Source: Myxococcaceae bacterium
Lineage (GTDB): Bacteria > Myxococcota > Myxococcia > Myxococcales > Myxococcaceae
Assembly (NCBI GenBank): GCA_017881265.1
Contig: JADGRA010000079.1
Span: forward strand, 1 to 64,000
Direction of reading: 5' to 3'
Length of the DNA stretch: 64,000 bases
Part shown: one piece after another, positions 1-62,197 of the stretch
Layout: every line of letters starts with the position of its first letter
How positions within the stretch are numbered: position 1 is the stretch's first letter
The notes under the pieces: model-generated
What the model was told of the DNA's origin: nothing
The model's database searches: none
What the model saw: the letters and a program-made list of their open reading frames with translations, nothing else
Position numbers and translations under genes: made by a program

Positions 1-104
1 ACTTCATTGCCCCTAGGTAGATGATTTTAGAACTGCCGTGATCGAATCGTCGGAAGCAGCGAGAATGGCAAGACACGGTCACATCCCTCCAGGAGGAGGC
101 CTCC

Positions 105-635
105 GTGGCGCTCGTGGTCTTCCTGAAAGGAATCAACGTAGGCGGGCACAAGCTCGTCCGTCCGTCCCTGCTCGCCCAGCAGCTGAAACGCTACGATGTA
201 GTGAACATTGGTGCGGCAGGAACCTTCGTGGTTCGTCGGCCCGTCAGTCAGAGCCGACTACTGGCGGAAATCGAGCGCCGATTGCCGGTCCAGGCTGAAG
301 TCATTATTTGCGACAGCGGCGCGCTTCTCGGCGCGGCGTCCGTTTTCCGATTTGGGCGCGCGCCGATTCGCTCCGATGTTGTTCGCTTCGTGAGTGTGAT
401 GTCCCGCCTACATCGTCGGCCGCCCCCCACCCCTTTCGCCCTCCCTCTGCACGGAAGATGGCTAGTGAGAGTCCTCGCAAGGGAAGGCAGGTTTCTGTTC
501 GGGGTCTACCGTCGTCAGATGCAGACCATACGGCAACTCGGCGCGATGGATAGACTCTTCGGCGCGCCGATCACTACACGCAATTGGAATACGATCGCTG
601 CCATTCGAAAGGTACTGGAAGACGGACGTTCATGA
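105..635 (+). CDS. DUF1697 family protein
   Basis: 176 residues. The N-terminus has the family pattern FLKGINVGG (residues 6-14) followed by NIGAAGTFVV near residue 34, which is how DUF1697 proteins begin. Molecular function of the family is unknown. I take the GTG at 105 as start because an AGGAGG-like Shine-Dalgarno lies at about 91-96. It is a single-gene unit: the next 1 kb has no convincing gene. It sits at the left edge of the accessory region and is followed by a tRNA-tail-like scar at 949. The C-terminus (TTRNWNTIAAIRKVLE) also fits the family, so the gene looks complete. Confidence 0.85.
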   Translation: MALVVFLKGINVGGHKLVRPSLLAQQLKRYDVVNIGAAGTFVVRRPVSQSRLLAEIERRLPVQAEVIICDSGALLGAASVFRFGRAPIRSDVVRFVSVMSRLHRRPPPTPFALPLHGRWLVRVLAREGRFLFGVYRRQMQTIRQLGAMDRLFGAPITTRNWNTIAAIRKVLEDGRS

Positions 636-1637
636 CGGTCGCAGGTCTGAACTTTCTCCTCCAAACGGAGTCGGATTGGCAGACTGGGCGCTCATCGAGA
701 TCGAGGCAACCTCGCCCACCGTGACTCAGGGGGCAGAAGCGAGGCGTCCGAGCAAGCCCCAGGCCACGACCGCCGAATCTATGTTCGATTTGTGGTTCAA
801 AGCCGCGACCGTCGGCGGACGCTGCCGGACTCATGGCCGGTCGGAGGGTTAATCCTCTCCGGTCAAGCCCCCGACTTACTCGAAGACGGACCCTCCCGAA
901 CTTCGTTGGACGTGCGCGGCTCTTCTGGGCCCGGTTTTCCCAAGCTCGGGGTCGAGGGTTCGAATCCCTTCCACCGCTCTAGTCGTTGTCACTCGCCGGA
1001 GCTCACTTGCGGAGTGCTGCCGTCGAAGGAACACAGCGACGTCGCATCCAATCCGGCAGCGCTCTCCCGCGCAGCGCGATTAGGGTAAGCGCGTCGGCCT
1101 CGTTTCGGCTTTCTCAGCCTTCACCGATGACAGGGATGCGCGCCCTCCCGTTCGGGTCGAGTCCAGCGCCGGGAGCTGCCCGGGCCACCACAGCAACACA
1201 GGACCGAGCGACGACGGCGGTAGTGCCTTGTCCCGGAGGCGCGCCAACCCCCGCACGTTGTTGACCGCGGTCGTGTCCGCGACGGTTGAGGTTCTGAGGG
1301 TGTCGCGCTGGGGGTGAGAGCATCCGCCATTGCTCGCGCTCAACAGCGGGCAGACCCTTCGCACTCTGTGAGTGGGACCGCGCTTCGCGGACCGGCCGCT
1401 GCTGAGGGCGGCCAGCGACGCAGCAACACCGCGCCCCTGGCCTGCACCTGCCCCTCGTCATCCGGAGGGTGGCCTCCGGAATGCATGCCGATGTCGATTC
1501 GGCTCCGAGACAGCTTTCCCGGTGAAAGTCTCTCCGCGCCGTGCCCTTGGCCGCAAATCTTTCCGAAACCGCTGTTTCCACCGCAAACGGCACTTTCACC
1601 CGCTCCCCCAGCACGAGCCCAGCCTGGAGAAAGCCGC
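636..1637. other. gene-poor stretch with one tRNA-like scar
   Basis: About 1 kb without a convincing gene. Open frames here have no recognisable motifs and are mostly low-quality GC-rich frames. The only structure I can point to is the tRNA T-arm/acceptor-like segment at 949-980. The long frame upstream of 1638 in phase with the cytochrome gene has no SD or signal sequence of its own, and I treat it as non-coding. Confidence 0.5.
949..980 (+). repeat. tRNA 3'-end-like scar, copy A
   Basis: GGGTCGAGGGTTCGAATCCC followed by TTCCACCGCTCT looks like a tRNA T-arm (loop TTCGAAT) plus the 3' acceptor strand. No matching 5' acceptor strand or anticodon arm is found upstream, so it is not a tRNA gene. 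Near-identical segments occur at 5374 and 8129. The sequence right after it (agtcgttgtc, 981-990) recurs at 5884-5893. Confidence 0.6.
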
Positions 1638-2648
1638 ATGACGCTCGCCACCTGGATGACCGCGCTGTTACTGACCCTGGGCGATGGGGCTATCCCAGCG
1701 CAGTCGGCTGAGTCCAGTTCCCGACCGCCAGCCGCGGCCGTGGCGCAGGCTGCCCAGCCCGCTCCCGCCGCGTCCCCGGGGACCGCCCAGCCGCTCAGCG
1801 GCCCCAGCATCCTCCGAGGCCTGGCGCTCACCGTCGAGGGGAATCAGCTTGGCCGCCTGGGCGGAGATGGCCCTCCCCGAAGCGCGCTGCCGCAGGCCTT
1901 CATCGACTCCGTCCGCAAGGCGCTCACGCAGGCCGGATCCAAGGACGAGGCGGCGCTCCAGAGCCTGCGCGCGACGTTCCCGGTCAGCGGCGCGGATATC
2001 TACCGCCTGAACTGCCGGTCCTGCCACGGTCCGGCCGGGGCCGGGAAGCCGCCCGCCATCGCCTCGATCATCGGCCCGGCGCGAGCCCTCTCGCCAGCTC
2101 AGCACGAGGCGGTGATGAAGGCGGCGGGATCCCAGGCGAACCCCGAGCTGGCCCGGCAGCTGGCGCTCCACGCCGAGGAGGTGCTGCGGGAGCGGCTAGC
2201 CAAGGGCGGAATCAAACCCAATCTGCCGTACCTGGAGACCATGCCGCCCTTCGCCTACCTCTCCGACCAGGAGGTGGTGGTGCTCGCGGACTACCTCAAG
2301 GAGCTGGGCGGCGTCGTCAACAAGGGGACCGCCGTCCAGAAGGTCAACCAGTCGGCCATGCGAATCGGCGAGCAGGTGGTCCGCGGCACCTGCCGCATCT
2401 GCCACGACGCCACCGGAATGAGTGGTGGACACGCACTGATGATGGCCGGCCTGATCCCGGCGCTAGGCAACCTGCCGGAGCAGATGTCGCTCGACGCGGT
2501 GGTCCACAAGGTGCGGCACGGCTGGACCTCGATGGCGGGGATGGCCCGGCCCGCGTCGCGCATGCCGATCTTCGCGTACCTGAGCGACGAGGAGGTGGCG
2601 GCCGCCTACCTCTACTTGGCTTACCTGCCACCCCAGCAGGCCCGGTGA
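1638..2648 (+). CDS. exported di-haem cytochrome c family protein
   Basis: 336 residues from the ATG at 1638, chosen because GGAGA lies 7 nt upstream and the protein then opens with a hydrophobic signal segment (residues 3-25). There are two haem-attachment motifs, CRSCH near residue 126 and CRICH near residue 252. Each is followed downstream by a MPPFAYLSDQEV / MPIFAYLSDEEV motif that supplies the distal Met typical of class I cytochrome domains. The two halves look like a duplicated cytochrome c domain. Likely periplasmic electron carrier; the partner enzyme is not nearby. The longer upstream frame is rejected. Confidence 0.85.
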   Translation: MTLATWMTALLLTLGDGAIPAQSAESSSRPPAAAVAQAAQPAPAASPGTAQPLSGPSILRGLALTVEGNQLGRLGGDGPPRSALPQAFIDSVRKALTQAGSKDEAALQSLRATFPVSGADIYRLNCRSCHGPAGAGKPPAIASIIGPARALSPAQHEAVMKAAGSQANPELARQLALHAEEVLRERLAKGGIKPNLPYLETMPPFAYLSDQEVVVLADYLKELGGVVNKGTAVQKVNQSAMRIGEQVVRGTCRICHDATGMSGGHALMMAGLIPALGNLPEQMSLDAVVHKVRHGWTSMAGMARPASRMPIFAYLSDEEVAAAYLYLAYLPPQQAR

Positions 2649-2656
2649 TCTCGAAA

Positions 2657-2759
2657 GCGGCGTTGGAGACCCGAAGTTGGGGAGGGTCTCGCGTCGACCG
2701 AGGCGGTAGACGGTCGTTGGCCTCACCCGCAGTCGCGCGGCGACGGTGTCCGGGGTCAT
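2657..2759 (-). pseudogene. truncated helix-turn-helix (excisionase-type) remnant
   Basis: A GGAGGG Shine-Dalgarno precedes an ATG at 2759 (minus strand). The first 25 or so residues (TPDTVAARLRVRPTTVYRLGRR) fit the MerR/excisionase-like HTH_17 fold used by small DNA-binding proteins. Similarity ends after about 30 codons, and the frame then simply runs antisense through the cytochrome gene. I read it as the 5' stub of a DNA-binding gene cut off by rearrangement. It lies between the cytochrome gene and senB. Confidence 0.4.
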
Positions 2760-2841
2760 GTCGTCACCCTCCGCAGGCCGGAATGACGCTGAAAGCCGTG
2801 GGATTCGACCAACCCGAACCGCACACATGGTCTTCCCCTGG

Positions 2842-3855
2842 TCAGTCCGCGCCTGCTTCAACCGCCGGTCGACCACCGACGTCGCGCCTGGCGTGCGGCT
2901 TGCCGGCATGGACTAGGTTCAGCAAATGCGCCCACGCGCGGCGCTCCAAGGCGGGTCGAAACAGCGGCTGAAGCCGCCGGATGTGTGCAACGAGTCGTCG
3001 TCGGAAAGGCCCATCCTGCTCCACTCTCCACAACAGCTCGGCGAGGGCGTGGCTATCTCCGAATGGGAAATACCCCGGATAGGAGACGCCGAGCAGCCCC
3101 ACGGTCCCGGGAATGCGAGAGCACACCACTGGCACCCCGGCGACTACCGCCTCGGAGATGACGTTCGCGCCGCCCTCGAGGCGCGAACTAAGCACGAGCA
3201 AATCCGAGCGAGAGAGTCGGCGGAGCGTCTCTGCCTGGGGGCGCTCACCTAGCCAGCGGTAGCGAGGGTTCCGCTGGGCTTCCGCCCGAGCACGGCTCGC
3301 CATCCTGGGATTGAGCGCGCCGCCCAGGTGGGTCACACGGATGCGTGACATCTCCGGCAACATCCGCGTCGCCAAAGCGGTGCGAAAGGGGTCCTTCACC
3401 GGACGGAGATGGCCGATCACACAAAGCTCGAAATGGGTTGATCGCGTCCGCACAGCCTCGTACCGGGGTGTTGCGGATTGGTAGATGACACGAACCTTGT
3501 CGCGGTGTGGAGGGGGCACCGCCCGTAGCGCGAGCGGCTGAAGCACCACGAGTCGGTCTGCTAGACGCAGCGAGTCCTGGGCGGCGCGCGACCGGTGCAA
3601 GTCCTGGTACACGTCGGTTCCCGTGAGAGCGACGACCAGAAAGCCGTCGGGGTGGAGCGCCTTGAAGCGTTCGGCGGACGCGTGGCTCTTACGCGCATGG
3701 AGGGCAATGAGAACGTCTGCGGCGCCACTCTGATACTCGCCCCCTGTGCGGAGTTGATGTCCGAGGCCCTTGAGGATGCGCGCCCACCGTCTTGCAGTGA
3801 CGCCGTTCCCCTGGAGGGAACCGCGCCGGACGGGGGTGATGAGCCGGATCTTCAC
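2842..3855 (-). CDS. senB: SenB-type selenosugar synthase (TIGR04348 glycosyltransferase)
   Basis: About 337 residues from a GTG at 3855. The start is chosen because the family begins KIRLITP..RGS..GN..TA.RWARIL, and because GTGA overlaps the stop of the upstream gene by 4 bp. The Rossmann-type glycosyltransferase pattern is clear: LIALHARKS, VVALTGTDVY, ADRLVVLQPLAL, RVIYQSA, VIGHLRPVKDPF, then RLEGGANVISEAVVAGVPVVCSRIPG as the donor-binding C-terminal domain. In characterised sen clusters SenB joins selenophosphate to UDP-sugar to make the selenosugar for SenA. The tight coupling to senA supports this role. The selenophosphate synthetase partner (senC/selD) is not in the window. Confidence 0.8.
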   Translation of the reverse strand: MKIRLITPVRRGSLQGNGVTARRWARILKGLGHQLRTGGEYQSGAADVLIALHARKSHASAERFKALHPDGFLVVALTGTDVYQDLHRSRAAQDSLRLADRLVVLQPLALRAVPPPHRDKVRVIYQSATPRYEAVRTRSTHFELCVIGHLRPVKDPFRTALATRMLPEMSRIRVTHLGGALNPRMASRARAEAQRNPRYRWLGERPQAETLRRLSRSDLLVLSSRLEGGANVISEAVVAGVPVVCSRIPGTVGLLGVSYPGYFPFGDSHALAELLWRVEQDGPFRRRLVAHIRRLQPLFRPALERRAWAHLLNLVHAGKPHARRDVGGRPAVEAGAD

Positions 3856-5135
3856 GACAGGGCACAGGTTCTGAAGCCTGCGAATACGTCTCGCCGATCG
3901 GGCGTGTAGAAGTTCCGGAAGCCGGGCCGGATCATCCGCGACCGCGTGGCCCAGGAGCCGCCTTTGAGAACCTTGTGCGTGGCGAACCAAGGCCGCGAAT
4001 AGTCCTCGTAGGGGTCGGGGAAAAACCCAGGGTATGGAAGGAAGTCGCTCGCCGTCCACTCCCAGACGTTTCCGAGCATCTGCCGACAGCCCCACGCGCT
4101 GTCGCCCGCGGCGAGCGCCCTGACATCGACTGGCTGAGCAATCCGGCCGTCCAATTGAGCGCGCTCCGGATCCGGGACCACCTCACCCCACGGATTGGGG
4201 CGGCGTTGGCTGGAGAGGGTCCCGCTTGCGTCAGGCGCGGAGGCTGCGGCCGCTTCCCACTCGACTTCAGTGGGCAGCCGCCGCCCGGCCCACCGGCTGT
4301 AGGCGTCTGCTTCGAAGTAGTTGATGAGATGCACGGGGAGGGTGGGTTCCAACTCCACCCAACGTTCGAAGTGACGCCGAAGCCAGGTTCCACCCTCACG
4401 ACGCCAATGCAAAGGGTGTTCGGCTTCGGCTTGCAGCCGCCAGCGCCAACCGGCGTCGGTCCAAAGATCGCGACGCGAGTACCCTCCATCCTCCACGAAT
4501 GCGGCAAACTCGGCTTGGGTCTCCGCCATGCGCTTGATGGCGAAGGGCTTCAAGCGCACTGGATGAGACCACTTCTCATTGTCGAAGAGAAAAGCCGCGT
4601 CTCGTGGGCTTCCCAGAAAAAAAGTTCCACCGGGGAGCTGAGCGTCACCCTCCGCGCCAGGCTGGGCCTGAGGCGTTGCGGCGTCTCGCGAGAAGCGAGT
4701 TGGGTAGGCGAGCGTCTGCCGGGTCATCCAGAAGGCCTCGGCGTGCATGTCTTCATGGAAGGTGGCGAGGAGGAGGAAGTACGGCTCGGGGGAACCCTCG
4801 GTGAGGCGCGGCAAGCCTTCGACGACAGTGTCCACGACGACCTGGAGATGCGCGAGCGTGGCACCCCGGGAAGGCAGCGGAAGGTCCCAACGCGTGTCGT
4901 GCTGAACCTTGCTCGAGTCGTAGAGGTCATCGCGCATAGGCCGCGTCAACCTGCGGGCGTGGCGAAGCACCCAATGCTCCTGGAACCAGCCGACGTGTCC
5001 CACTTCCCACAGGAGCGGGTTGACGGTGTTCAGCCGCGGCCCCATCCACTGTTCGTCGTTCAAGTCCTCGACGAGGTCCAACGTCCGCCGGCGCGCGTCA
5101 AGAATCCACTCCCCAAGAAGAGCGGGTGGCAACAT
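3852..5135 (-). CDS. senA: SenA-type selenoneine synthase (EgtB-like non-haem iron enzyme)
   Basis: 427 residues. The N-terminal DinB-like domain carries H47 (EVGHVGW) and the HEDMHAE motif with H127 and H131, the three-histidine iron site of EgtB-like sulfoxide synthases. The C-terminal half is a formylglycine-generating-enzyme/C-type-lectin fold, with TQAEFAAFVEDGGY, RLPTEVEWE, GNVWEWTASDF and KGGSWATR. EgtB makes ergothioneine. The adjacent TIGR04348 gene is the signature that separates selenoneine synthase SenA from EgtB. Upstream of the ATG a TATAAG-like -10 lies at 5144-5149. The first gene of a two-gene operon with senB. The alternative is a generic EgtB-like enzyme with sulfur as substrate. 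Confidence 0.8.
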   Translation of the reverse strand: MLPPALLGEWILDARRRTLDLVEDLNDEQWMGPRLNTVNPLLWEVGHVGWFQEHWVLRHARRLTRPMRDDLYDSSKVQHDTRWDLPLPSRGATLAHLQVVVDTVVEGLPRLTEGSPEPYFLLLATFHEDMHAEAFWMTRQTLAYPTRFSRDAATPQAQPGAEGDAQLPGGTFFLGSPRDAAFLFDNEKWSHPVRLKPFAIKRMAETQAEFAAFVEDGGYSRRDLWTDAGWRWRLQAEAEHPLHWRREGGTWLRRHFERWVELEPTLPVHLINYFEADAYSRWAGRRLPTEVEWEAAAASAPDASGTLSSQRRPNPWGEVVPDPERAQLDGRIAQPVDVRALAAGDSAWGCRQMLGNVWEWTASDFLPYPGFFPDPYEDYSRPWFATHKVLKGGSWATRSRMIRPGFRNFYTPDRRDVFAGFRTCALS

Positions 5136-5373: not shown

Positions 5374-5405
5374 GGGTCGAGGGCTCGAATCCCTTCCGCC
5401 GCTCT
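5374..5405 (+). repeat. tRNA 3'-end-like scar, copy B
   Basis: GGGTCGAGGGCTCGAATCCC then TTCCGCCGCTCT: same T-arm plus acceptor-like sequence as copies A and C, one C for T difference in the loop region. No 5' tRNA half is present. Its last 10 bases (ccgccgctct) recur at 5874-5883, bracketing a 478-bp segment. Confidence 0.6.
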
Positions 5406-7920: not shown

Positions 7921-8700
7921 CCATCCCAATTGGCGATCAGGGACGGATGACCTTTCTCGCCGGTTCCGACGCCCAGGTTCTAACGCCGAGCTAGACTGAA
8001 GGCTCGCACAGAGCCAACGTTCGCTGGGAGGACGCAGGCCGCCCAAGTCCGCGACATGCATTCGGATCCCGGCACCGATACTTGGCGCCTCGCAGCCCAG
8101 GTATCAACCGGCGCTGATGGACAAGCAAGGGTCGAGGGTTCGAATCCCCTTCCGCCGCACTCGTTTGCCCCTCTGGGAAAGCTTCCCAGCAAATATTGAG
8201 GGGCTCGTTCTCGACGCCTCTCGATGCGGCCTCCCTAAGTCGCAAGGTCGGGGTCGAGCTTGTAGCCTCAGACGTGATGCGCGGATCCGCCTGGCGGAGC
8301 ACCTTCTGCGCGACGGCCATTGGAACGCCCTCCCGAGGTATAGGGACGCGGCGGTATCTTGACGGTCGTTCAACGTCAGCGCGCGGACTAGCGGCGACAC
8401 CCAGAGCTTCCGCCACGTCCTCTCCTCGCCGTGCAGCGTCGGAGAGTAGCGGGGCAAAGCGTCTGGGGTACCCCCTGAACGCTCGCAGTGCCAAGCCCGG
8501 CATGTGTGGCGGTGGCCCACGGTGATGCCTGGCACCGCAGTGCCGTCCTTGGAAGTGACGCGAGGAGTCCGAAAAAACGGCAGTCTCCTGACCCACCCGC
8601 GTCGAAATGACCCACCCGACCCGGAGGCGGTCTCGGGGGTTAGCCCTGGTGTCGGGAATGCATTGTTCGAAGGAGCCGTTCCCCAGGGAGGAGAAGCGCA
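7921..8700. other. gene-free stretch with a tRNA-like scar
   Basis: 780 bp with no convincing gene. Minus-strand frames here contain GFEPSTLACPS and GIRTLDPC, the well-known spurious peptides produced by reading antisense through a tRNA T-arm, which confirms the tRNA-derived scar at 8129 rather than a protein gene. Confidence 0.55.
8129..8158 (+). repeat. tRNA 3'-end-like scar, copy C
   Basis: GGGTCGAGGGTTCGAATCCC then CTTCCGCCGC. It matches copies A and B except for one extra C. No upstream tRNA half was found. It sits in the gene-free stretch after the GNAT gene. Confidence 0.6.
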
Positions 8701-9015
8701 ATGCAGGACGCAGCTCGACAGACTGTTTCGGACGAAGCCTCCTCGGAGGCCTTGGAACAGTTGACCTCGCTCGGAGAGCCCGTGGACCCGACGGCAATGC
8801 TCAGCAAGCCCGAAGTTACGCAGGCTGTGCGTTTGGCCGCCGCCGCCGTCGTCCAGTCAGACCTGGAGCGTTACGACGGCTTGCAGGGGGTCATGGTCGG
8901 GCGAGCCTACAGTATCGCCTACCAAGAGCTCTCCCGGTACGAAGCGAAGGACGGCCCACTGTTGGACTGGCTCTCGCGGAGGGTCCAGAACGGCCTCGTG
9001 CAGGATTTTGCCTAA
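8701..9015 (+). CDS. small hypothetical protein
   Basis: 104 residues, preceded by a strong AGGGAGGAGA Shine-Dalgarno 8-10 nt before the ATG, which is the main reason to call it. I do not recognise the family. It is acidic at the N-terminus and predicted all-helical. The C-terminal segment AYQELSRYEAKDGPLLDWLSRRVQNGLVQDF loosely resembles region 2 of ECF sigma factors (aromatic pair before WL..R..N), but the protein ends there, so a sigma function is not supported. It has no close neighbours on the same strand. Confidence 0.5.
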   Translation: MQDAARQTVSDEASSEALEQLTSLGEPVDPTAMLSKPEVTQAVRLAAAAVVQSDLERYDGLQGVMVGRAYSIAYQELSRYEAKDGPLLDWLSRRVQNGLVQDFA

Positions 9016-16309: not shown

Positions 16310-17283
<974 letters not shown>

Positions 17284-17287
<4 letters not shown>

Positions 17288-17928
17288 AGCTGTACAGCTA
17301 CTGGCGGAGTTCCTCCAGCTGGCGGGTGCGGATTGGCCTGCACTGGAAAAAGCAGCCCTTCGCCTACGTGCCCGTCCACCTGCTCAAGGACGGCGGCCAG
17401 CAGAAGGCCGAGCCCTTCGCTCGCCTCAACCCGATGCAGAGCGTGCCGCTCCTCGAGGTGCAGGACGGTGGCCGGCTCATCCACATCGCCCAGTCGATGG
17501 CCATCCTCGAGTACCTGGAGGAGCGCTGGCCCGAGCCACCGCTGCTCCCGGGCGACCGCGTCGCCCGCGCCCAGGTGCGACAGGCGGCCGAACTCATCAA
17601 CTCCGGCATCCAGCCCTACCAGAACACCTCGGTGCAGAAGCGGGTGAAGCACGAGCTGCACGGCGACGAGAAAGCCTGGGCGCGCCACTTCATCGAGGTG
17701 GGGCTGCACGCGCTGGAGCCGCTGCTGCACTCCACCTCGGGGCGCTACGCAGTGGGCGACCAGGTGACGCTCGCCGACTGTTACCTGGTGCCGCAGCTGT
17801 ACCACGCCCGCCGCTACGCGGTGGACCTCGCCGCCTTTCCCACGTTGACCCGCATCGAAGCTTCCTGCGAGGTGCTCCCCGCCTTCCAGGGGGCGCACCC
17901 CGACCGGCAACCCGACGCCGAAGCCTGA
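17284..17928 (+). CDS. maiA: maleylacetoacetate isomerase (GST zeta class)
   Basis: 214 residues. The N-terminal thioredoxin-like GST domain begins MKLYSYWRSSSSWRVRIGLHWK. In zeta-class GSTs this motif is SSCxWRVRIAL; here the cysteine position is a serine (SSSSWRVRI), so the GSH-activating Ser is kept but the usual Cys is not. QSVPLLEVQDGG, IHIAQSMAILEYLEERWP and the C-terminal helical domain with GDQVTLADCYLVPQLYHARRY fit MaiA. It isomerises maleylacetoacetate to fumarylacetoacetate using glutathione. ATGA overlap with the gene before; 23 nt to the next. Confidence 0.88.
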
Positions 17929-17951
17929 AAACGACGAAGGAACCCTCCGCC

Positions 17952-19109
17952 ATGCCCAAACTCGAGTCCCTTGGTATTCTCGGCATCGAAGCCGCCCACT
18001 GGTACGTGCACGACCTGGAGCGCAGCCGCCGCTTCTACGTCGACGGGATGGACTTCGCCGAAGTCGGCGGAAGCGACCCGGAGCTCACCGCCAAGGGCCG
18101 GCAACACAGCGCCGTCTTCGCCGCCGGGGACGTGACGCTCATCGTCAGCCGGCCCGTCGGCGAGGGCGGCCGGGCGTGGCGCTGGCTGAAGAAGCATCCC
18201 GACGGGGTGGGGACGTTGTGGTTCCGGGTCAAGGACATCGAGCGGACGTTCGGCCTGCTGGAGAGACGGGGAGCCACCATCATCGACGACATCCAGCGCG
18301 CCACCGACGCGCAGGGCGGAAAGCTCGCCAGCTTCTCCATCACCACCCCCTTCGGCGACAGCACCTTCCGCTTCGTGCAACGGGACGGCTACCGGGCGCT
18401 GTACCCGGGCATGGTGTTCCACCCCCAGCCGCTGGGCGGGAAGAACCGCTTCGGCCTCACCCACGTCGACCACGTGACGTCCAACTTCCAGACGCTGCTG
18501 CCGGCCATCCTCTGGATGGAGAACGTGCTCGGTCTCGAGCAGTTCTGGAAAATCGAGTTCCACACCGGCGACTCTCAGGAGCGCCTCGAGCAGGGCTCCG
18601 GGCTGCGCAGCACCGTCATGTGGGACCCCGAATCCACCGTGAAGTTCGCCAACAACGAGCCGAGCCGGCCGAATTTCAAGGCCTCCCAAATCAATCTCTT
18701 CCACGAGGACAACCAGGGCGACGGCATCCAGCATTTGGCCCTGGCGGTGAGGGAGATTCTTCCGGCGGTGGAGGGGCTGCGTGCCACCCGGAAGGTGGAC
18801 TTCATGGACACCCCGGACAGCTATTACGACAACCTGGCCCGGCGCATCGAGGTCCTCAACATCCGCCGCATCGACGAGAACCCGGAGGACCTGCGCCGGC
18901 TGCGCATCCTCATCGACGGCGCCGAGGAGCACAGCTACCTGCTTCAAATCTTCATGAAGGATGCCGCCACGCTCTACCGGGAGCCCGGTGCCGGCCCCTT
19001 CTTCTATGAACTCATCCAGCGCAAGGGCGACCGGGGCTTCGGTGCCGGCAACTTCCGCTCGCTCTTCGAGAGCATCGAGCGTGAGCAGCGCTCGCAAGGG
19101 AGGATTTGA
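17952..19109 (+). CDS. hppD: 4-hydroxyphenylpyruvate dioxygenase
   Basis: 385 residues, with GAAGGA before the ATG at 17952. Two vicinal-oxygen-chelate domains are seen. The C-terminal one supplies the iron ligands in LTHVDHVTSNF, GIQHLALAV and the FFYELIQRKGDRGFGAGNFRSLFESIEREQ block with the Glu ligand and the C-terminal gating helix. SQINLFHEDN is also conserved. It converts 4-hydroxyphenylpyruvate to homogentisate with O2 and Fe(II). Third gene of the four-gene operon. The order here (hydrolase, isomerase, HPPD, HGO) runs opposite to the pathway. Confidence 0.93.
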   Translation: MPKLESLGILGIEAAHWYVHDLERSRRFYVDGMDFAEVGGSDPELTAKGRQHSAVFAAGDVTLIVSRPVGEGGRAWRWLKKHPDGVGTLWFRVKDIERTFGLLERRGATIIDDIQRATDAQGGKLASFSITTPFGDSTFRFVQRDGYRALYPGMVFHPQPLGGKNRFGLTHVDHVTSNFQTLLPAILWMENVLGLEQFWKIEFHTGDSQERLEQGSGLRSTVMWDPESTVKFANNEPSRPNFKASQINLFHEDNQGDGIQHLALAVREILPAVEGLRATRKVDFMDTPDSYYDNLARRIEVLNIRRIDENPEDLRRLRILIDGAEEHSYLLQIFMKDAATLYREPGAGPFFYELIQRKGDRGFGAGNFRSLFESIEREQRSQGRI

Positions 19110-53643: not shown

Positions 53644-54039
53644 GTGAATACCGCCGCACCACAGCCGGCCGCGGCATCGTCTCCGGCCCCCGCCTCCGCC
53701 AAGCCCGCCAGCAAGACGTTTGGCATGTCGGCGTCCGCCGCGGCGCGCATCCAGAAGCTGCGCGAGGAGCGGGCGACGCCGGAAGCGGGCCTGCGCGTGG
53801 CGGTCCGCGGTGGAGGCTGCTCGGGGCTGACGTACGTCATCGAGTGGGCCGAGGGCCCGCGGGAGCGCGACAAGCTGTTCGAGCGGGACGGCGTGCGCGT
53901 CTTCGTGGACCCGAAGAGTTTTCTGTACCTGATGGGCTCGGAGCTGACGTACGAGGAGACGCTGATGGCCTCGGGCTTCAAGCTGCAGAACCCCCTCGTG
54001 AAGACCGCTTGCGGCTGCGGCGAGAGCTTCTCCATCTGA
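53644..54039 (+). CDS. iscA: Fe-S carrier protein IscA
   Basis: 131 residues from the GTG at 53644. The three A-type cysteines are C59 (GGGCSGLTY), C123 and C125 (TACGCGESF). The core begins near residue 28 (MSASAAARIQKL); before it is an Ala/Pro-rich extension of about 27 residues, so an internal ATG at residue 28 is a possible alternative start. It passes clusters from IscU to apoproteins. Third isc gene. Confidence 0.93.
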   Translation: MNTAAPQPAAASSPAPASAKPASKTFGMSASAAARIQKLREERATPEAGLRVAVRGGGCSGLTYVIEWAEGPRERDKLFERDGVRVFVDPKSFLYLMGSELTYEETLMASGFKLQNPLVKTACGCGESFSI

Positions 54040-54126
54040 CGGCGCCGGGGCCCAGGGGCGGCTCTCGCACCGGCGCCCGTCTCCGCTCGCCTTCGCCCGG
54101 CCCCTTCGGAAAGGACTGACGCCGCC

Positions 54127-54758
54127 GTGCAGTGCTGGAACTGCCACACCGACTTTGCTCCGGGCACCCTGCTCTGCCCGCGCTGCGGCAAGGTGCAGCC
54201 GCCGGCGGTGGGCGCGACCCTCTTCGACGCCTTCGGGCTAGCGCCCCGGGTGGACGTCGACATACCCGAGCTGGAGCAGGCTTACCGGGAGCGCTCGCTG
54301 CAGGTGCACCCGGACCGCTACACCACCGCGCAGGCGCGCGAACGCCGCTTCGCTCTCGAGCAGAGCACCCTTCTCAACGACGCCTACCGCACGCTGAAGG
54401 ACCGCGCCGCCCGGGCCTTCTATGTGTTGAAGCTGCACGGGCTGGACTTGTCCCGCGAGGACCTGGGCACCCAGAAGGACATGCCCTTGGACTTCCTCGA
54501 GGAAGTCATGCAGCTGCGCGAGGCCCTTGACGGACACCGCGAGAAGGGCGCGCTCGAAGCGGCGCTGCACATGGCCGGCGACGTCTCCGTGCGTCGTTCG
54601 ACGGCCCTGGCTGAGGCCGAGGCCGCCCTGCGCCAGCTGCTGGCCCACCCCGGGCAAGACGCGGCACGCACCGAGGCTAGCCATGCGTTGGCCCGGGTGC
54701 GCTACTTCACGCGCTTCCTCGAGGAGGTCGACGCGATGGAGGAGGAGGCGCTGGAGGG

Positions 54759-54762
<4 letters not shown>
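54127..54762 (+). CDS. hscB: co-chaperone HscB with N-terminal zinc ribbon
   Basis: 211 residues from the GTG at 54127. The N-terminus carries CxxC pairs C3/C6 and C17/C20 (QCWNC, LCPRCG), a metal-binding knuckle that E. coli HscB lacks but mitochondrial HSC20 proteins have. A J-domain follows with HPD at 61-63 ([10 protein letters not shown]). The C-terminal IscU-binding helices contain [14 protein letters not shown]. It delivers IscU to HscA. Its TGA overlaps the hscA ATG by 4 bp. Confidence 0.93.
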
Positions 54763-56600
<1,838 letters not shown>

Positions 56601-56601
56601 G

Positions 56602-56985
56602 ATGCCGAAGGTCAGCTTCAAGAGCCCCCTCGACGACGTGTCCGTCGACGTGGCGCCGGGGACGTCCCTGTTGGAGGCGGCCGAGAAGTGCGGCGCGCAC
56701 GTGGGCCATTCCTGCGGGGGAGTGTGCGCCTGCTCCACCTGCCACCTCTGGGTGAAGCGGGGCCTGGACAGCCTGTCGGAGCAGGAGGACGCGGAGATGG
56801 ACCGGATTGACCAGGCCTTTGACGTGCGGGCCTTCTCTCGGCTGGGGTGCCAGGCGCGCGTCGATGCCGAGGACGTGGACGTGGAGATTACCGAGGAGTC
56901 CCTGAGCGCCTACCTGGACGAGAACCCGGCGTTGCGCCACGGCCTGGAGGCGGAAGGAAAGTGGCCGCTGAAGAAAGCGCGCTGA
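56602..56985 (+). CDS. fdx: ISC-type [2Fe-2S] ferredoxin
   Basis: 127 residues. Cluster ligands are C38, C44, C47 and C83 (HSCGGVCACSTC, then RLGCQARV), with the additional conserved C42 typical of ISC ferredoxins. The N-terminal MPKVSFKSPLDDVSVDVAPGTSLLEAA is the usual beta-grasp start. It supplies electrons for cluster assembly. Last gene of the isc operon, 1 bp after hscA. No iscX follows: the next gene is tRNA-Leu. The C-terminus has a short acidic/basic extension (LDENPALRHGLEAEG). Confidence 0.95.
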   Translation: MPKVSFKSPLDDVSVDVAPGTSLLEAAEKCGAHVGHSCGGVCACSTCHLWVKRGLDSLSEQEDAEMDRIDQAFDVRAFSRLGCQARVDAEDVDVEITEESLSAYLDENPALRHGLEAEGKWPLKKAR

Positions 56986-57048: not shown

Positions 57049-57132
57049 GCCCAGGTGGTGGAATTGGTAGACACACTAGATTCAGGGTCTAGCGCCCGAA
57101 ACGGCATGAAGGTTCGAGTCCTTTCCTGGGCA
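57049..57132 (+). tRNA. tRNA-Leu(CAG)
   Basis: Acceptor GCCCAGG pairs with CCTGGGC (57125-57131). The anticodon stem CTAGA/TCTAG holds the loop TTCAGGG, giving anticodon CAG (reads CUG). A long variable arm (GCCCGAAACGGC) and a T-arm with loop TTCGAGT follow, as in class II tRNA-Leu. CCA is not encoded (ACAG follows). Its 3' half is repeated at 62157-62197, marking an integration site. Confidence 0.95.
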
Positions 57133-57220
57133 CAGTGATTTTCGGTAGTTTGGGGGATTGCATGGAACCGAGTGGGATCAGGCTGCGGCCCATGAGATGG
57201 GCTCTGTGCCGGTCACCGGC

Positions 57221-58421
57221 TGTCCGTACCGAGAATCTCAAAGGCGACGTGCGGGCGTCGGAGCTAAGACGCCTGCATCGCGCACGGAGTTCGCGAACGC
57301 GGTGAGCCTCGGTGTCGCCGAAGGCAACAGATGACCCGCGCCAGCGAACATTCGAGGCCGATGGCCTATCTCCACGCGTCGAACACGCGTCGAGCCCCAG
57401 GCTCGACCTCGTAGGCTGCGTGCGGCTTGGAATACGCCGCTCGACAGTAGCGGTGATGCAGTCCGCCAAGCACGTCGCGCGAACTGACGGTCCCGGCACA
57501 GGGCGGTTCGACGGCGCGCCCCTCAGGCGCTCGCCAGTGGAAGATGCGTTCTATCGCGCAGATAGTACGCGACGTACTCTCGCACACGCCCATCGCCCTG
57601 ATGGTGCCGGTGACGGCGTGGCCGTAGATGCCGTCCCTGTCTCGGTGAAGGAACCGGTGCGCTGTCGAATGGAAAGGCCTCGCGAAGTTGCTGGCTCGTC
57701 CAGGCCGCCGTCGGGTGGGCGGTTACCGCGACATGCCGGATTCGGCGACGGCCATGCTCGAGGATGACGAAGCCGTAGAGCAGCTGGAACGTCGCCGTCG
57801 GGATGACGAAGAAGTCCATGGCCGCAGCCTGGGACAAGTGGTTCCGCAGGAAGGTCCGCCACGTCTGGGAGGGCGGTCTCCGAGGCCGACGCGGCATGTA
57901 CTTCGCGATGGTCGACTGCGCGACGCCGAACCCGAGCTAGAGCAACTCACCGTGAATCCTCGGTGCGCCCCACGAGGGGTTGTCGGTGGCCATCTTCCGG
58001 ACGAGTGCTTGAATCGCGCCAGCGGTATGCGGTCGTCCTCCTCTGCGCGAGCGCCAGCGCCAGAAGTGTCGGAAACCCGCCCGGTGCCACGCGATGACAG
58101 GCTCCGGCTTGACGAGGCACAGCACCTCGCGCCACCGCGGCCACCGGCTCGCCAAAGCCATCCAGAACAGCTTGTCGACAACGCCGAGACTGGGCCGAGG
58201 CCGATGCCTCCGCAGGACAGCGAGTTGCTGGCGGCGTGCGACGTTCTCAAGCGCGAGCTCTTGGCCGGCGAGAACCGAGCGGAACAAGCCGAACACGGCG
58301 ACGAGGAGGGCCAGGGCCTCGACTGTGGCGCAGGAGCGGAGCGCGGTCACCGGCCGCGCTCCCCAATACCAACGTCGCAACCCCTCGAAATATGGCCCTC
58401 TTGAGGTTGTCGGTACCTACA
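57221..58421 (-). mobile_element. IS481-like insertion element, decayed (copy 1)
   Basis: Ends: TGTCCGTACCGAGAATCTC at 57221-57239 and GAGGTTGTCGGTACCTACA at 58403-58421, an inverted repeat matching at 15 of 19 positions and beginning with TGT, as IS481 elements do. Length 1201 bp with one transposase gene on the minus strand. No clear target duplication was found. Its left 320 bp and right 80 bp recur in the 570-bp element at 61453. Confidence 0.65.
57420..58380 (-). pseudogene. rve-core (IS481-like) transposase, broken
   Basis: The N-terminal part reads LENVARRQQLAVLRR..PSLGVVDKLFWMALASRWPRWREVLCLVKPEPVIAWHRAGFRHFWRWRSRRGGRP, then NPSWGAPRIHGELL. An in-frame TAG at 57939-57937 takes the place of the usual Lys before LGFGVAQSTIAKYMPRR. 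The same frame goes on through RTFLRNHLSQAAAMDFFVIPTATFQLLYGFVILEHGRRRIRHVAVTAHPTAAWTSQQLREAFPFDSAP. A frameshift then moves the reading to RFLHRDRDGIYGHAVTGTIRAMGV and later to the C-terminal GGLHHRY. At least one nonsense and one frame change, so it cannot be active. Confidence 0.8.
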
Positions 58422-58702
58422 GGGGAGGGATGGCCGAGGTGTACCTGGGGCACCCGGCTGGGGCGGGACGTCGCCATCAAGGTCGTGGGCCGAGGCCAAG
58501 TCCAAACGGACGTCCGTTCCGAGGTCCGACTCGCCGGCGGCCTTCGTCCCTTTCGAGGTTGTAGCCTCTGCGTACGACCGATGCATCGAAGGCCCCGGTC
58601 CGCTCCTCCGCGGCGTCACGGTACTGCGCGGCTTCAAGGGTCCACCCGTGTCTCTGACGCCGGGTGCTCGGGTGGGCCCTTGGGTCGCGCCTCGTTGAGC
58701 GG

Positions 58703-60763
58703 TCAAATTTTTCGGAGGTACGCGAGCAGCGCCGGAACCTCGGCGTCGGTGAAGGGACGGTCTTGCACGGGAGGTACGACGCCCGGCTGAGTGGTCAGGA
58801 GCGGCGCTGCCGGATTTTGGATCGCGACGCGCTGGAAGAACGCTTTGTAGTGATCGAGCATTTCTTCGAGCGTCGCGGCCGTGTTGTTGATGAAGTATGG
58901 CGCGGTCCGGCTGATTCCACGCAGGCTTGGGATGTCAAAGTGCTCGATGTCACCCGGGCCACCGGGTTGCGGGTAGCCGGTGAGGAGCATCCGGCCCGGA
59001 TCCGAGGTCGTGACTCGCGTGATGCAGGGAGGCTGGGGAGCCGCCCCTCCACACGCCGTTCCGCTCGGGGGGACGCCGCTGTTGGTGATCTCGTAAGTCC
59101 GCACGTTTGCCATCTGGCTCGGGCTGCATGCCGCGAACAGGAAGCGGGGGGGGGACACGGTGTCGACTGGCCGTGGGCACGTGGACGCGATGCTGTGGTA
59201 CCGGACGATGGCGGTGGGCGTGCCCTGCGTCCCCTGGAGGATGGGCGTGCTGCCGCTCGGATGGCCACCGAGGTTGCCGTGACACTGTCCGCAGGCCCGG
59301 TTGAAGACGGACTTGCCCGCCATCTCCAGCTCGTCGAGCACGGGGTCAGGATCGGGCAGGGGAACGGTGCCCGCGGCCATCGCGTCGGAGAGGAGCTGGA
59401 CGCTCGGGGAGGAGAACTGTGTGCTCTCGAAGCCCGCCACGTCGTCCAAGAAGCTCACCGGCGGGTCGACGGTGATGGACGCATGGTTGCGGAGCGCGGA
59501 GAGCGCCTGGTGCTGCAGCGTGTCGATGCGGCCGTCGAGCTGGTAGCCGCCGGTCGGGTTCGGCCCACGGGGCCATACCGGAGCGAGGCCATCGGGACCC
59601 GTGATGTTGACGTTGAGGATTGAAGGAACGGAGCGCCAGACGTCGGCGACGGTCTCGGAGGTCGGCCGGGCCGTCGGGGGACAAGGAACGGCCGACCCAC
59701 AGTCGAGCAGCTTCACGTTTGGTGGCAGCGGGATGGTAATGCGAATTAGCCCGTTCACCGTCAGGTTCGTGTAGTCGTGCGCGGCCGCGCCGTTGATGCG
59801 AAAGTCGTTGGCATCGATGGGCCGGAACAGCGGGTCGTCCTCACCTGAGCTGGTCATCTCGTTGAACCGTGCCAGGGCCGCCGCGGGAGTCAGCTGGAAG
59901 CTCTCTGAAGGGCTGTGGCAGTCGGCGCAGGAGCGCCCGTTGCCGCCTAGGCCCGCGAGGGTACGGTCGTGGAAGTTCGCCTTGCCGCGGCAGAACATGC
60001 TGTCGACAGGCGTGTGTGAGGGACCCGCGGCCACGTCGCACGAATCGATCGTGCATTCGTTGCCGTCGTCGAGCGCGATGGGTGTGTGAGTGACCGCGCC
60101 GGTGACAAGATCGCAACTGTCGGTGGTGCAGGCATTGTCGTCACTGAGGACGGGACCCGGTAGCGCGAGGTGAATCTCGGTCGCTGGAAAATGCTTGTCA
60201 CCACTCTGGACGTGAAGATGAAACGTATCCGCTGTTACGATGCGACCTGCGACGGGAAGCGGATCGGACGGGCCGTCCCAGTCGGCGTCTTCATCATCGT
60301 CCTGGGGATGAGCGCCCAACCTGCACTTCCTGAAGACGTACTGCGTCCCGCCGAAGCCGCGGTAACCGTTGCCGCGGTAGACACAGGTCGTGGAGTCGCC
60401 GCTTCCGCTCCTGAAGCTCAGTATCGCTCGGCCTCTCGCGGAGGCCCCCGCGGTCACCGAGATCTCGGAGGGGATGGCGAACGTGAGGGAACCGCCAACG
60501 AAGGTGACGTCACCGTCAGTCCAGCTCCTGGGGCGGTAGTCGCGCCGAGCTTCCAGCGAAACGCCGGCGCAGGGGGAATGGGCCTCGGGAACCAGGCCGC
60601 TGTTTTCGATGCGGCCCGATGAGACCGGCGTGGAGGCGGACCCTTGCCCGGAGCCGATGCCCCCAGACGAACCGCACGCAGACATCACGAGCAGCAGCGG
60701 GATCGCTCGAAGGATGGCACCTATTCTTTTTTTGACCTCGGTGAAGCACCTGGTGAAGCACAT
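58703..60763 (-). CDS. di-haem cytochrome c / cytochrome-c-peroxidase-like lipoprotein
   Basis: 686 residues. A lipobox (LLLVMSACGS) gives a lipid-anchored protein. Residues about 60-240 hold a beta-rich domain. Next are two tandem cysteine units of the DDxNxCTxDSCDxxxGxxxHTP kind, common in myxobacterial exported proteins. Two haem motifs follow, CADCH and CGQCH (FNRACGQCHGNLGG), with the MauG/cytochrome-c-peroxidase-like layout (DIPSLRGISRTAPYFINNTAATLEEMLDHY near the end). It is likely an outer-membrane or periplasmic oxidase or peroxidase. GGGGGT precedes the ATG at 60763. It is the only intact cargo gene of the island. Confidence 0.8.
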   Translation of the reverse strand: MCFTRCFTEVKKRIGAILRAIPLLLVMSACGSSGGIGSGQGSASTPVSSGRIENSGLVPEAHSPCAGVSLEARRDYRPRSWTDGDVTFVGGSLTFAIPSEISVTAGASARGRAILSFRSGSGDSTTCVYRGNGYRGFGGTQYVFRKCRLGAHPQDDDEDADWDGPSDPLPVAGRIVTADTFHLHVQSGDKHFPATEIHLALPGPVLSDDNACTTDSCDLVTGAVTHTPIALDDGNECTIDSCDVAAGPSHTPVDSMFCRGKANFHDRTLAGLGGNGRSCADCHSPSESFQLTPAAALARFNEMTSSGEDDPLFRPIDANDFRINGAAAHDYTNLTVNGLIRITIPLPPNVKLLDCGSAVPCPPTARPTSETVADVWRSVPSILNVNITGPDGLAPVWPRGPNPTGGYQLDGRIDTLQHQALSALRNHASITVDPPVSFLDDVAGFESTQFSSPSVQLLSDAMAAGTVPLPDPDPVLDELEMAGKSVFNRACGQCHGNLGGHPSGSTPILQGTQGTPTAIVRYHSIASTCPRPVDTVSPPRFLFAACSPSQMANVRTYEITNSGVPPSGTACGGAAPQPPCITRVTTSDPGRMLLTGYPQPGGPGDIEHFDIPSLRGISRTAPYFINNTAATLEEMLDHYKAFFQRVAIQNPAAPLLTTQPGVVPPVQDRPFTDAEVPALLAYLRKI

Positions 60764-61281
60764 GGTTACCCCCGATAGCGACTTGGTTCGGCGTGAGACC
60801 GAGCCGGATTAATGCGCTGCCCCTGCGGCGACGCGGAAACACGGAGCGCCAACAGGGGAGCACGAGCGCACCCGCGCTCTGAATTGGACGAAACATCGGG
60901 AACCCACAACGCCGATGACGAGCTGGGGCAACCCCGCCCCCTCGGCCGACCGCTTGGCCACTCACCAAGAGGTCATTTCAAGACGCCTTCCCGTCGCGCT
61001 CGTCGTCGAGTCCTCGCGACGGTCCCGGAGGGTTCCCTCCATTCGCAACGTAGGCGCCTCTATCGTCCATTTCCCAACACCGCAGAGTGAAGGCGCGCAA
61101 GTAGTTAGTATCCCGCGCGAAGTTCCCTCGTTCGGCGATGACAAGTACTCGAGTTCGGGAAGGCGGGCACTGCGCCTGATTGACGAGTTACGCCCATGCT
61201 TGGCCGATCTTCGGTGGCGGTCTCCGGCTTGCTTCTGCTCTCCCGTGCCGGCAACTTTCGCCATCCGCACCAACCACTCCT
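60764..61281. other. gene-free stretch, possible integrase trace
   Basis: No intact gene. A minus-strand frame starts with a GTG at 61285 that overlaps the stop of the HTH gene (GTGA) and reads KEWLVRMAKVAGTGEQKQAGDRHR. This has the look of a tyrosine-recombinase N-terminus, but it degenerates quickly. The call is weak. Confidence 0.3.
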
Positions 61282-61450
61282 TCACCGGGCGCCCCGCGAC
61301 GCGGCGATGAAGCTCTCAAACGCGACCGCCGGAATCCGTATGACGTTCCCGCCAAGGCGCGCGTGCACCAGTTTCCCGTCTTTCACCCAGCCGTACCGTC
61401 GCTGGCGAGATGTGCAGCTGTTCGGCGAGCTGGCCGACGGCAAAAGCCAT
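61282..61450 (-). pseudogene. excisionase-type HTH_17 gene, frameshifted
   Basis: From the ATG at 61450 the frame gives AFAVGQLAEQLHISPATVR. After a frame change near 61392 it continues WVKDGKLVHARLGGNVIRIPAVAFESFIAASRGAR and stops at 61282. Together this is a complete 56-residue HTH_17 (excisionase/MerR-like) protein. One base change restores it. It sits 2 bp from the end of the 570-bp MITE-like element, whose insertion separated it from its original upstream region. Confidence 0.65.
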
Positions 61451-61452
61451 CC

Positions 61453-62022
61453 TGTCCGTACCGAGAACCTCAAAGGCGTCGTGCGGGCGCGGACCAAAGA
61501 CGCCTGCTTCGCGCAAAGAGGTCGCGAACGCAGTGAGCCTCGGTATTGGCGACGGCAAGGGATTGCCGGCGCCAGAGAACACTCGAGGCCGATGGCCTCC
61601 AAGCGACGGAAACACGTCGAGTTTAAGGCGGCACTCCTCGTAAGCTCCGGGCGGCAGGACTACGTCGCTTGGCGGTAGTAGCGGTGATGCAGTCCGCCGA
61701 GCACGTCGCGCGAAATCACGCCCCGGGAGAGGGCGGTTCGACGGCGCGCACCTCGGGCGCAAAGGAGCCTGTCGACAACGCGGACACTGGAATGTGGCGC
61801 ATCTGGTGAGCGGAGGTTGGGTCACCCGCCGCGCTCACAGTTGGCTCCTCGAAATCGAGCTGTGTCCGATACTCAGCTCGAGGGCCTCGTAGGCCCGCGC
61901 TCCGGTTCACCTGGGTCGAGGTCCCCTGCCCTACCGAACCCGTGATGACTGGGACTGCGCTCCCCAAACCCGATGTCGCAAGCAATCGAATCGTGGCCCG
62001 CTAGAGGTTCTCGGTACGCACA
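61453..62022. mobile_element. MITE-like, internally deleted IS481-like element (copy 2)
   Basis: Ends TGTCCGTACCGAGAACCTC (61453-61471) and GAGGTTCTCGGTACGCACA (62004-62022) are inverted repeats with 18 of 19 matches. Left 315 bp match copy 1 at 57221-57537; the right 80 bp match 58340-58421. The middle of the transposase is missing, with the junction near gtcgacaacgc (61775; 58174 in copy 1). It keeps only the transposase C-terminus and would need a transposase supplied from elsewhere. Confidence 0.65.
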
Positions 62023-62156
62023 GGCTTGGCCATTCCGTCACCGGGACTGAAAATCCTCGGGTCGGTGATTCGATTCGCCGTTCGGAACTGCCTTCGCATC
62101 CCGGCCGCCGCGAGCCGTGGGCACATAGGCCTCCACTGCACACTGGTGGAAGCCAA

Positions 62157-62197
62157 ATTCAGGGTCTAGCGCCTTCGAGTCCTTTCCTGGGCACAGT
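62157..62197 (+). repeat. tRNA-Leu 3' remnant (att-like direct repeat)
   Basis: ATTCAGGGTCTAGCGCC (17 bases identical to tRNA-Leu) joins, after loss of about 16 bases of the variable arm, to TTCGAGTCCTTTCCTGGGC plus ACAGT, identical to the tRNA 3' end and the bases after it. It lies in the same orientation as the intact tRNA 5 kb away. Confidence 0.8.

Follow-up and report, generated by a model that had tools for sequence, protein, structure and literature searches.

The question raised by this locus is how a second piece of tRNA-Leu(CAG), comprising the 3′ half of the gene, came to lie 5.0 kb downstream of the intact copy and in the same orientation (5.1 kb from the end of the tRNA to the end of the fragment). 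The window, that is, the whole stretch of 64,000 nt that was analysed, corresponds to positions 1-64000 of contig C42 (JADGRA010000079.1) in a 4.4-Mb genome of 81 contigs, and tRNA-Leu(CAG) is the single tRNA that ARAGORN finds in it. We consider it likely, with a probability of about 85%, that the locus is the decayed scar of a tRNA-targeting integrative element whose integrase was lost, a composite remnant resembling a cis-mobilizable element (CIME) in which one gene, for a di-haem cytochrome, is intact (Table 1).

Table 1. Features of the tRNA-Leu(CAG) island and its upstream flank (window coordinates)
Feature	Position	Strand	Remark
iscA-hscB-hscA-ferredoxin genes	53644..56985	+	Precede the tRNA; conserved anchor in the chromosome
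Intact tRNA-Leu(CAG)	57049..57133	+	ARAGORN; putative regenerated target, attL side
Att-like segment of the intact tRNA	57080..57136	+	Anticodon loop through 3 nt beyond the gene; exact repeats D17 and D9
IS copy A, IS3/IS481-like	57219..58425	-	Close to full length; disrupted transposase frame
277 bp after IS copy A	58426..58702	+	No Pfam match in the frames tried
686-aa di-haem cytochrome, MauG/MbnH-like, with CTDC repeats	58703..60763	-	Sole intact gene of the presumed cargo
Excisionase-like remnant (HTH_17)	61290..61450	-	Disrupted frame; start codon directly adjoining IS copy B
IS copy B, same IS family as A	61451..62025	-	Internally deleted; direct orientation relative to A
tRNA-Phe 3′ fragment (62043-62090) after a 13-nt arm	62026..62090	+	tRNA alignment
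Displaced tRNA-Leu(CAG) 3′ fragment, putative attR side	62157..62197	+	17 + 24 nt exact, 16 nt missing

The intact tRNA and the fragment share two exact direct repeats, of 17 nt (57080-57096 and 62157-62173) and of 24 nt (57113-57136 and 62174-62197). The two blocks are contiguous in the fragment, whereas in the intact tRNA they are separated by 16 nt (57097-57112). An earlier sequence-only reading had described an intact tRNA with a direct 3′ remnant of 17 + 24 identical bases, and both the exact coordinates and a resampling of the downstream DNA confirm this: in 500 trials with first-order Markov resamples, the longest chance match of the tRNA 3′ half was 13 nt, against the 24 nt observed. 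The variable-arm deletion noted in that reading is also present, but is slightly larger than described, since the missing 16 nt comprise the outer variable arm and the 5′ strand of the T stem. The proposal that this deletion dates the event as old is weak, because a loss of 16 nt alone gives no date.

Direct repeats of this kind recur in the genome. For six of the 49 tRNAs surveyed (Met, Phe, Arg, Glu, Asp and Leu), 24-46 nt of the 3′ part recurred downstream in direct orientation, at a distance of 1.1-8.2 kb; the next longest direct match after these six islands was 13 nt, and none of the 49 had a repeat of at least 16 nt in reverse orientation. The survey covered the tRNAs with at least 1.5 kb of downstream sequence, out of 55 ARAGORN calls; the six with less than 1.5 kb lie on C77 (four), C70 and C64 (one each), and a tRNA-Lys on C71 falls outside the surveyed stretches. 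In a complete genome of the same family (G034), direct repeats of 35-46 nt were found for 4 of 62 tRNAs and reverse ones for 0 of 62. Given 4/62 there against 6/49 here, such scars are ordinary in the family, and we rejected on the same numbers the notion that the present genome is unusual.

The genome contains six tyrosine-recombinase matches (PF00589), four of which (on C6, C49, C52 and C70) lie within about 200 nt 3′ of a tRNA. The one on C6, at tRNA-Gly, is an open 366-aa integrase accompanied by an excisionase gene (TIGR01764 above cut-off); those on C49, C52 and C70 are partial over the domain, and the C49 match contains an in-frame stop. The remaining two, on C34 and C77, have no tRNA nearby and may be XerC/XerD. 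Three of the six islands (Glu, Met and Phe) have toxin-type genes close to their far end: a VapC-family PIN gene in the Glu island, another PIN gene in the Met island (both NCBIfam) and, in the Phe island, an antitoxin-like gene paired with an acetyltransferase gene, presumably a TacAT-like pair, with weak NCBIfam matches for both proteins.

A query holding tRNA-Leu(CAG) was matched in all of 30 genomes, namely the source genome, which is the sole member of its genus among those searched, and 29 relatives of other genera (genomes of up to 13.8 Mb occur within the family). By tblastn, the ferredoxin gene adjoins this tRNA directly upstream in 14 of 20 relatives' loci, and neither the cytochrome nor the glycosyltransferase downstream of the island had a match at any of the 20. 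This conserved ferredoxin-tRNA order, with neither cargo nor right flank found there, supports the history of an inserted element. The sequence-only reading had named presence of the same 5 kb in all relatives as the result that would speak against it, and this did not occur. At least 1.8 kb of downstream sequence was available for 19 of the 20 loci, and none of these 19 had a direct match of more than 12 nt to the tRNA 3′ part; the locus left out of this survey (L067) has too little downstream sequence. Among the matches listed at E 0.001, which short or diverged copies may escape, no second copy of the Leu(CAG) 3′ part was present for any of the 29 relatives, so that no sister island is known at this tRNA, and by these comparisons the island appears private to the source genome among those searched. 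An empty site proper was not seen among the relatives searched, all of other genera, and the PF00589 matches listed for 20 relatives include none within 20 kb downstream of tRNA-Leu(CAG). As the glycosyltransferase is not found at the locus in the 20 relatives, with no congener among them, only the repeat marks the right boundary of the island. Base composition does not set the island apart from its flank, with a GC content of 0.656 against 0.647 in the following 3 kb and about 0.69-0.71 upstream.

Three relatives (G007, G015 and G017) carry an integrase beside another tRNA-Leu (GAG), with no repeat of more than 12 nt downstream of that tRNA within 19.8, 19.8 and 4.1 kb, respectively. In G017 (positions 1-4165), a 465-aa open-frame integrase and an excisionase-like frame adjoin tRNA-Leu(GAG), and this element is possibly intact. 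A viral link through the 21-nt tRNA end was considered and rejected, as the match on the lone viral contig lay within a whole tRNA gene of a tRNA-carrying virus and is irrelevant.

Within the island, the IS debris and the broken excisionase-type gene reported in the sequence-only reading were both confirmed, although that reading missed that the two IS pieces belong to one family and lie in direct orientation. Indeed, copies A and B have ends in common, share repeats D1, D3, D5 and D6 at a spacing of 4230-4232, and are 81% identical in the left part common to both. Copy A is 89% identical over 838 nt to a near relative on C31, whose transposase frame is open over 339 aa and matches rve_3 above Pfam's cut-off; the best NCBIfam matches of this transposase, to IS3 (NF033516, 96.6 of 160 bits) and IS481 (NF033577, 68.1 of 224 bits), are both below cut-off. 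No target duplication was apparent by eye at the outer flanks of the pair, and no recognised integrase end was found in the 83 bp separating the tRNA from copy A. The excisionase-like remnant matches HTH_17 below Pfam's cut-off (6.2e-4), its translations are split across two frames, and a PHROG search with these frames gave no match. It is 74% identical in DNA to C79:31182-31345, a homologue which likewise contains a stop; a fragment of tRNA-Arg is about 135 nt away from it. The frames of transposase and excisionase are broken and the IS copies diverge by 11-19%; both argue that the event is old, and it is this decay that supports the description of the island as old and decayed.

The loss of the integrase was borne out as well: none of the six PF00589 matches of the genome is on the island's contig, and Pfam found no transfer genes among the island frames scanned. 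The further statement that the cargo is fixed appears weak, as residual att sites could still serve an integrase supplied in trans from another locus of the genome. C70 ends shortly after tRNA-Arg(CCG), with a truncated integrase. C79 ends beyond an excisionase-like remnant of its own and a fragment of tRNA-Arg(CCG), and these contig ends may be halves of one small tRNA-Arg island.

The right end of the locus contains a tRNA fragment of a second kind. Positions 62043-62090 match tRNA-Phe at 84% over 49 nt (E 3e-8), a decayed copy, and the longer segment 62026-62090 matches the end of the C52 tRNA-Phe island at 82% over 67 nt (E 4e-10). The 13-nt arm before the fragment is identical to the arm preceding the fragment that ends the C52 island, and 66 nt separate the Phe fragment from the Leu fragment. 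The fragment and the arm shared with the C52 island end make the locus composite, and this mixed tRNA-Phe/tRNA-Leu end is its only unusual feature. The sequence-only reading was thus mostly right but incomplete, having missed the tRNA-Phe fragment as well as the five further islands of this genome.

The cytochrome gene is, as had been claimed, intact: it is open over 686 aa and encodes two CxxCH haem motifs (CADCH and CGQCH). The protein is probably a lipoprotein. Pfam gave matches to CTDC (1.5e-13) and, weakly, to CCP_MauG (6e-4). Like MauG/MbnH enzymes, it has two CxxCH motifs and a matching C-terminal stretch (3.4e-6 to PDB 6e1c, a solved di-haem enzyme); unlike them, it is 686 aa long with CTDC repeats, and its score against TIGR04039 (MbnH) is far under the family cut-off (4.6e-8; 32.5 bits against 362.85). 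Its GC content at third positions is 0.80, where three genes of the isc cluster have 0.90-0.91 and the glycosyltransferase downstream has 0.70; this fits a foreign origin but is no proof of it. Relatives of the cytochrome were matched at seven loci in the genome contigs searched, mostly near residues 156-272, that is, in the repeat region, and these seven loci name no donor. A frame in the adjoining 277 bp may, by its motifs, resemble the start of a Ser/Thr protein kinase with its N-terminal loop. Upstream of the cytochrome gene, window positions 60881-61041 match C79 21626-21778, the start region of a 1062-aa kelch-like gene, at 78%, and the two genes may on this account share an upstream region.

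From the repeat, the decay, the absence of a recognisable integrase and the composite ends, we infer the following order of events. An element, presumably with a tyrosine recombinase, would have inserted into the 3′ half of tRNA-Leu(CAG); because its attachment site would have carried the tRNA 3′ half, the tRNA would have been restored on one side while the native 3′ half was displaced by 5 kb. The integrase would later have been lost from the element, and two copies of one IS family would have inserted, one of them directly at the excisionase-like gene's start codon; that gene then broke. The displaced tRNA fragment would have lost its 16 nt, and a decayed tRNA-Phe end of a related element would also have been included in the locus. 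The cytochrome gene would have arrived as cargo. Since no integrase remains, the mechanism of integration is inferred.

The two IS copies suggest another way in which the central segment could have been moved, namely as a unit within a composite transposon, the tRNA repeat being unrelated; they are direct copies and flank the kinase-like fragment, the cytochrome gene and the excisionase remnant. Copies A and B, however, differ by about 19%, whereas A is 89% identical to the C31 copy, and so A and B do not look to have moved together; nor was a target duplication seen by eye, and the tRNA fragment would be left unexplained. We therefore rejected the composite transposon as the main reading, the flanking IS copies being 81% identical instead of near-identical, and regard it as improbable. 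It is less probable still that the tRNA region was duplicated locally and then partly deleted, without a mobile element. Such a history would suit a repeat confined to 3′ tRNA sequence at a locus with no integrase left, but the repeat is att-like, with one end at the anticodon loop and the other 3 nt outside the tRNA gene, and the orientation bias of 6 to 0 among 49 tRNAs, together with integrases abutting four other tRNAs, fits site-specific integration. Insertion of an element is thus supported by a direct repeat that begins at the anticodon loop and exceeds the chance resamples, and by the direct-only orientation genome-wide.

Tandem accretion, in which separate tRNA-Phe and tRNA-Leu elements were joined by insertion or rearrangement, refines the history of an integrated element and does not exclude it. 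We regard it as a real possibility, if short of even odds. The Phe fragment with its element arm, so close to the Leu fragment, points to it, and C31 offers a parallel, in that the tRNA-Glu island there is followed, after about 0.5 kb, by a fragment of tRNA-Asp (98% over 51 nt); against it stand the decay of the Phe fragment and an order of events that has neither an integrase nor a second boundary to fix it. More doubtful is the idea of a change of target, in which the Phe end in the Leu island and the Asp end by the Glu island would be fossil traces of small, related elements that had switched from one tRNA to another; in this lineage, a single family would then have moved between sites at tRNA-Phe and at tRNA-Leu.

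Among known systems, the scar of an integrated element is closest to tDNA islands and CIMEs. By the Islander description, an island has an intact tRNA, a cognate 3′ fragment displaced from it without change of orientation, a length of 2-200 kb and an integrase gene inside, and damaged cases are counted (148 'islands with damage' in Table 1 of that paper) (PMC4383910). The present locus is alike in its tRNA and same-orientation fragment, in its 5.1 kb and in a fragment starting at the anticodon loop, which corresponds to the anticodon-centred class (PMC4383910). It differs in having no recognisable integrase, and as the definition needs one, we file the locus as the remnant of something that works, or once worked, like an Islander island. 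In the IME review, CIMEs have lost integration genes but kept attL- and attR-like sites, and their remnants are often accreted with other elements (PMC5704250). The present island is similar in having no recognised integration genes and, by sequence, attL- and attR-like sites; it is dissimilar in that its attR is damaged, lacking 16 nt, and in that nothing found in it points to an ICE or IME as ancestor. We would therefore call the locus a CIME-like remnant and only a candidate for mobilization. In short, the tRNA island is real, decayed and of an ordinary sort, and relics of this kind are well known from genomes. Its value lies in being a clean fossil of integration at a tRNA site in a family whose integrative elements are scarcely visible in the literature searched. 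With five further islands in the genome, small decaying tRNA islands are a regular feature of such chromosomes, and the mixed tRNA ends would, given intact relatives, permit a test of target switching.

Two other regions contain tRNA-derived sequences. At the start of the window, three direct tRNA-Gly-type 3′ fragments (949-979, 5374-5404 and 8125-8151) are closer to the 3′ end of tRNA-Gly(CCC) of G034 than to tRNA-Gly(GCC) of their own genome, which suggests that the contig begins with several tRNA-Gly island ends arrayed in tandem. Beside the third fragment, an open frame (7991-8797, minus strand) has a stretch that by eye is like the C-terminus of a tyrosine recombinase; it has no PHROG match. 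On C39, a tRNA-Asp 3′ fragment of 53 nt (2955-3007) is 100% identical to the tRNA, and at 16771-18599 some 15 unusual tRNA genes are densely packed on a single strand, with sequences unlike those of other tRNAs with the same anticodons; this run looks like the tRNA array of a mobile element.
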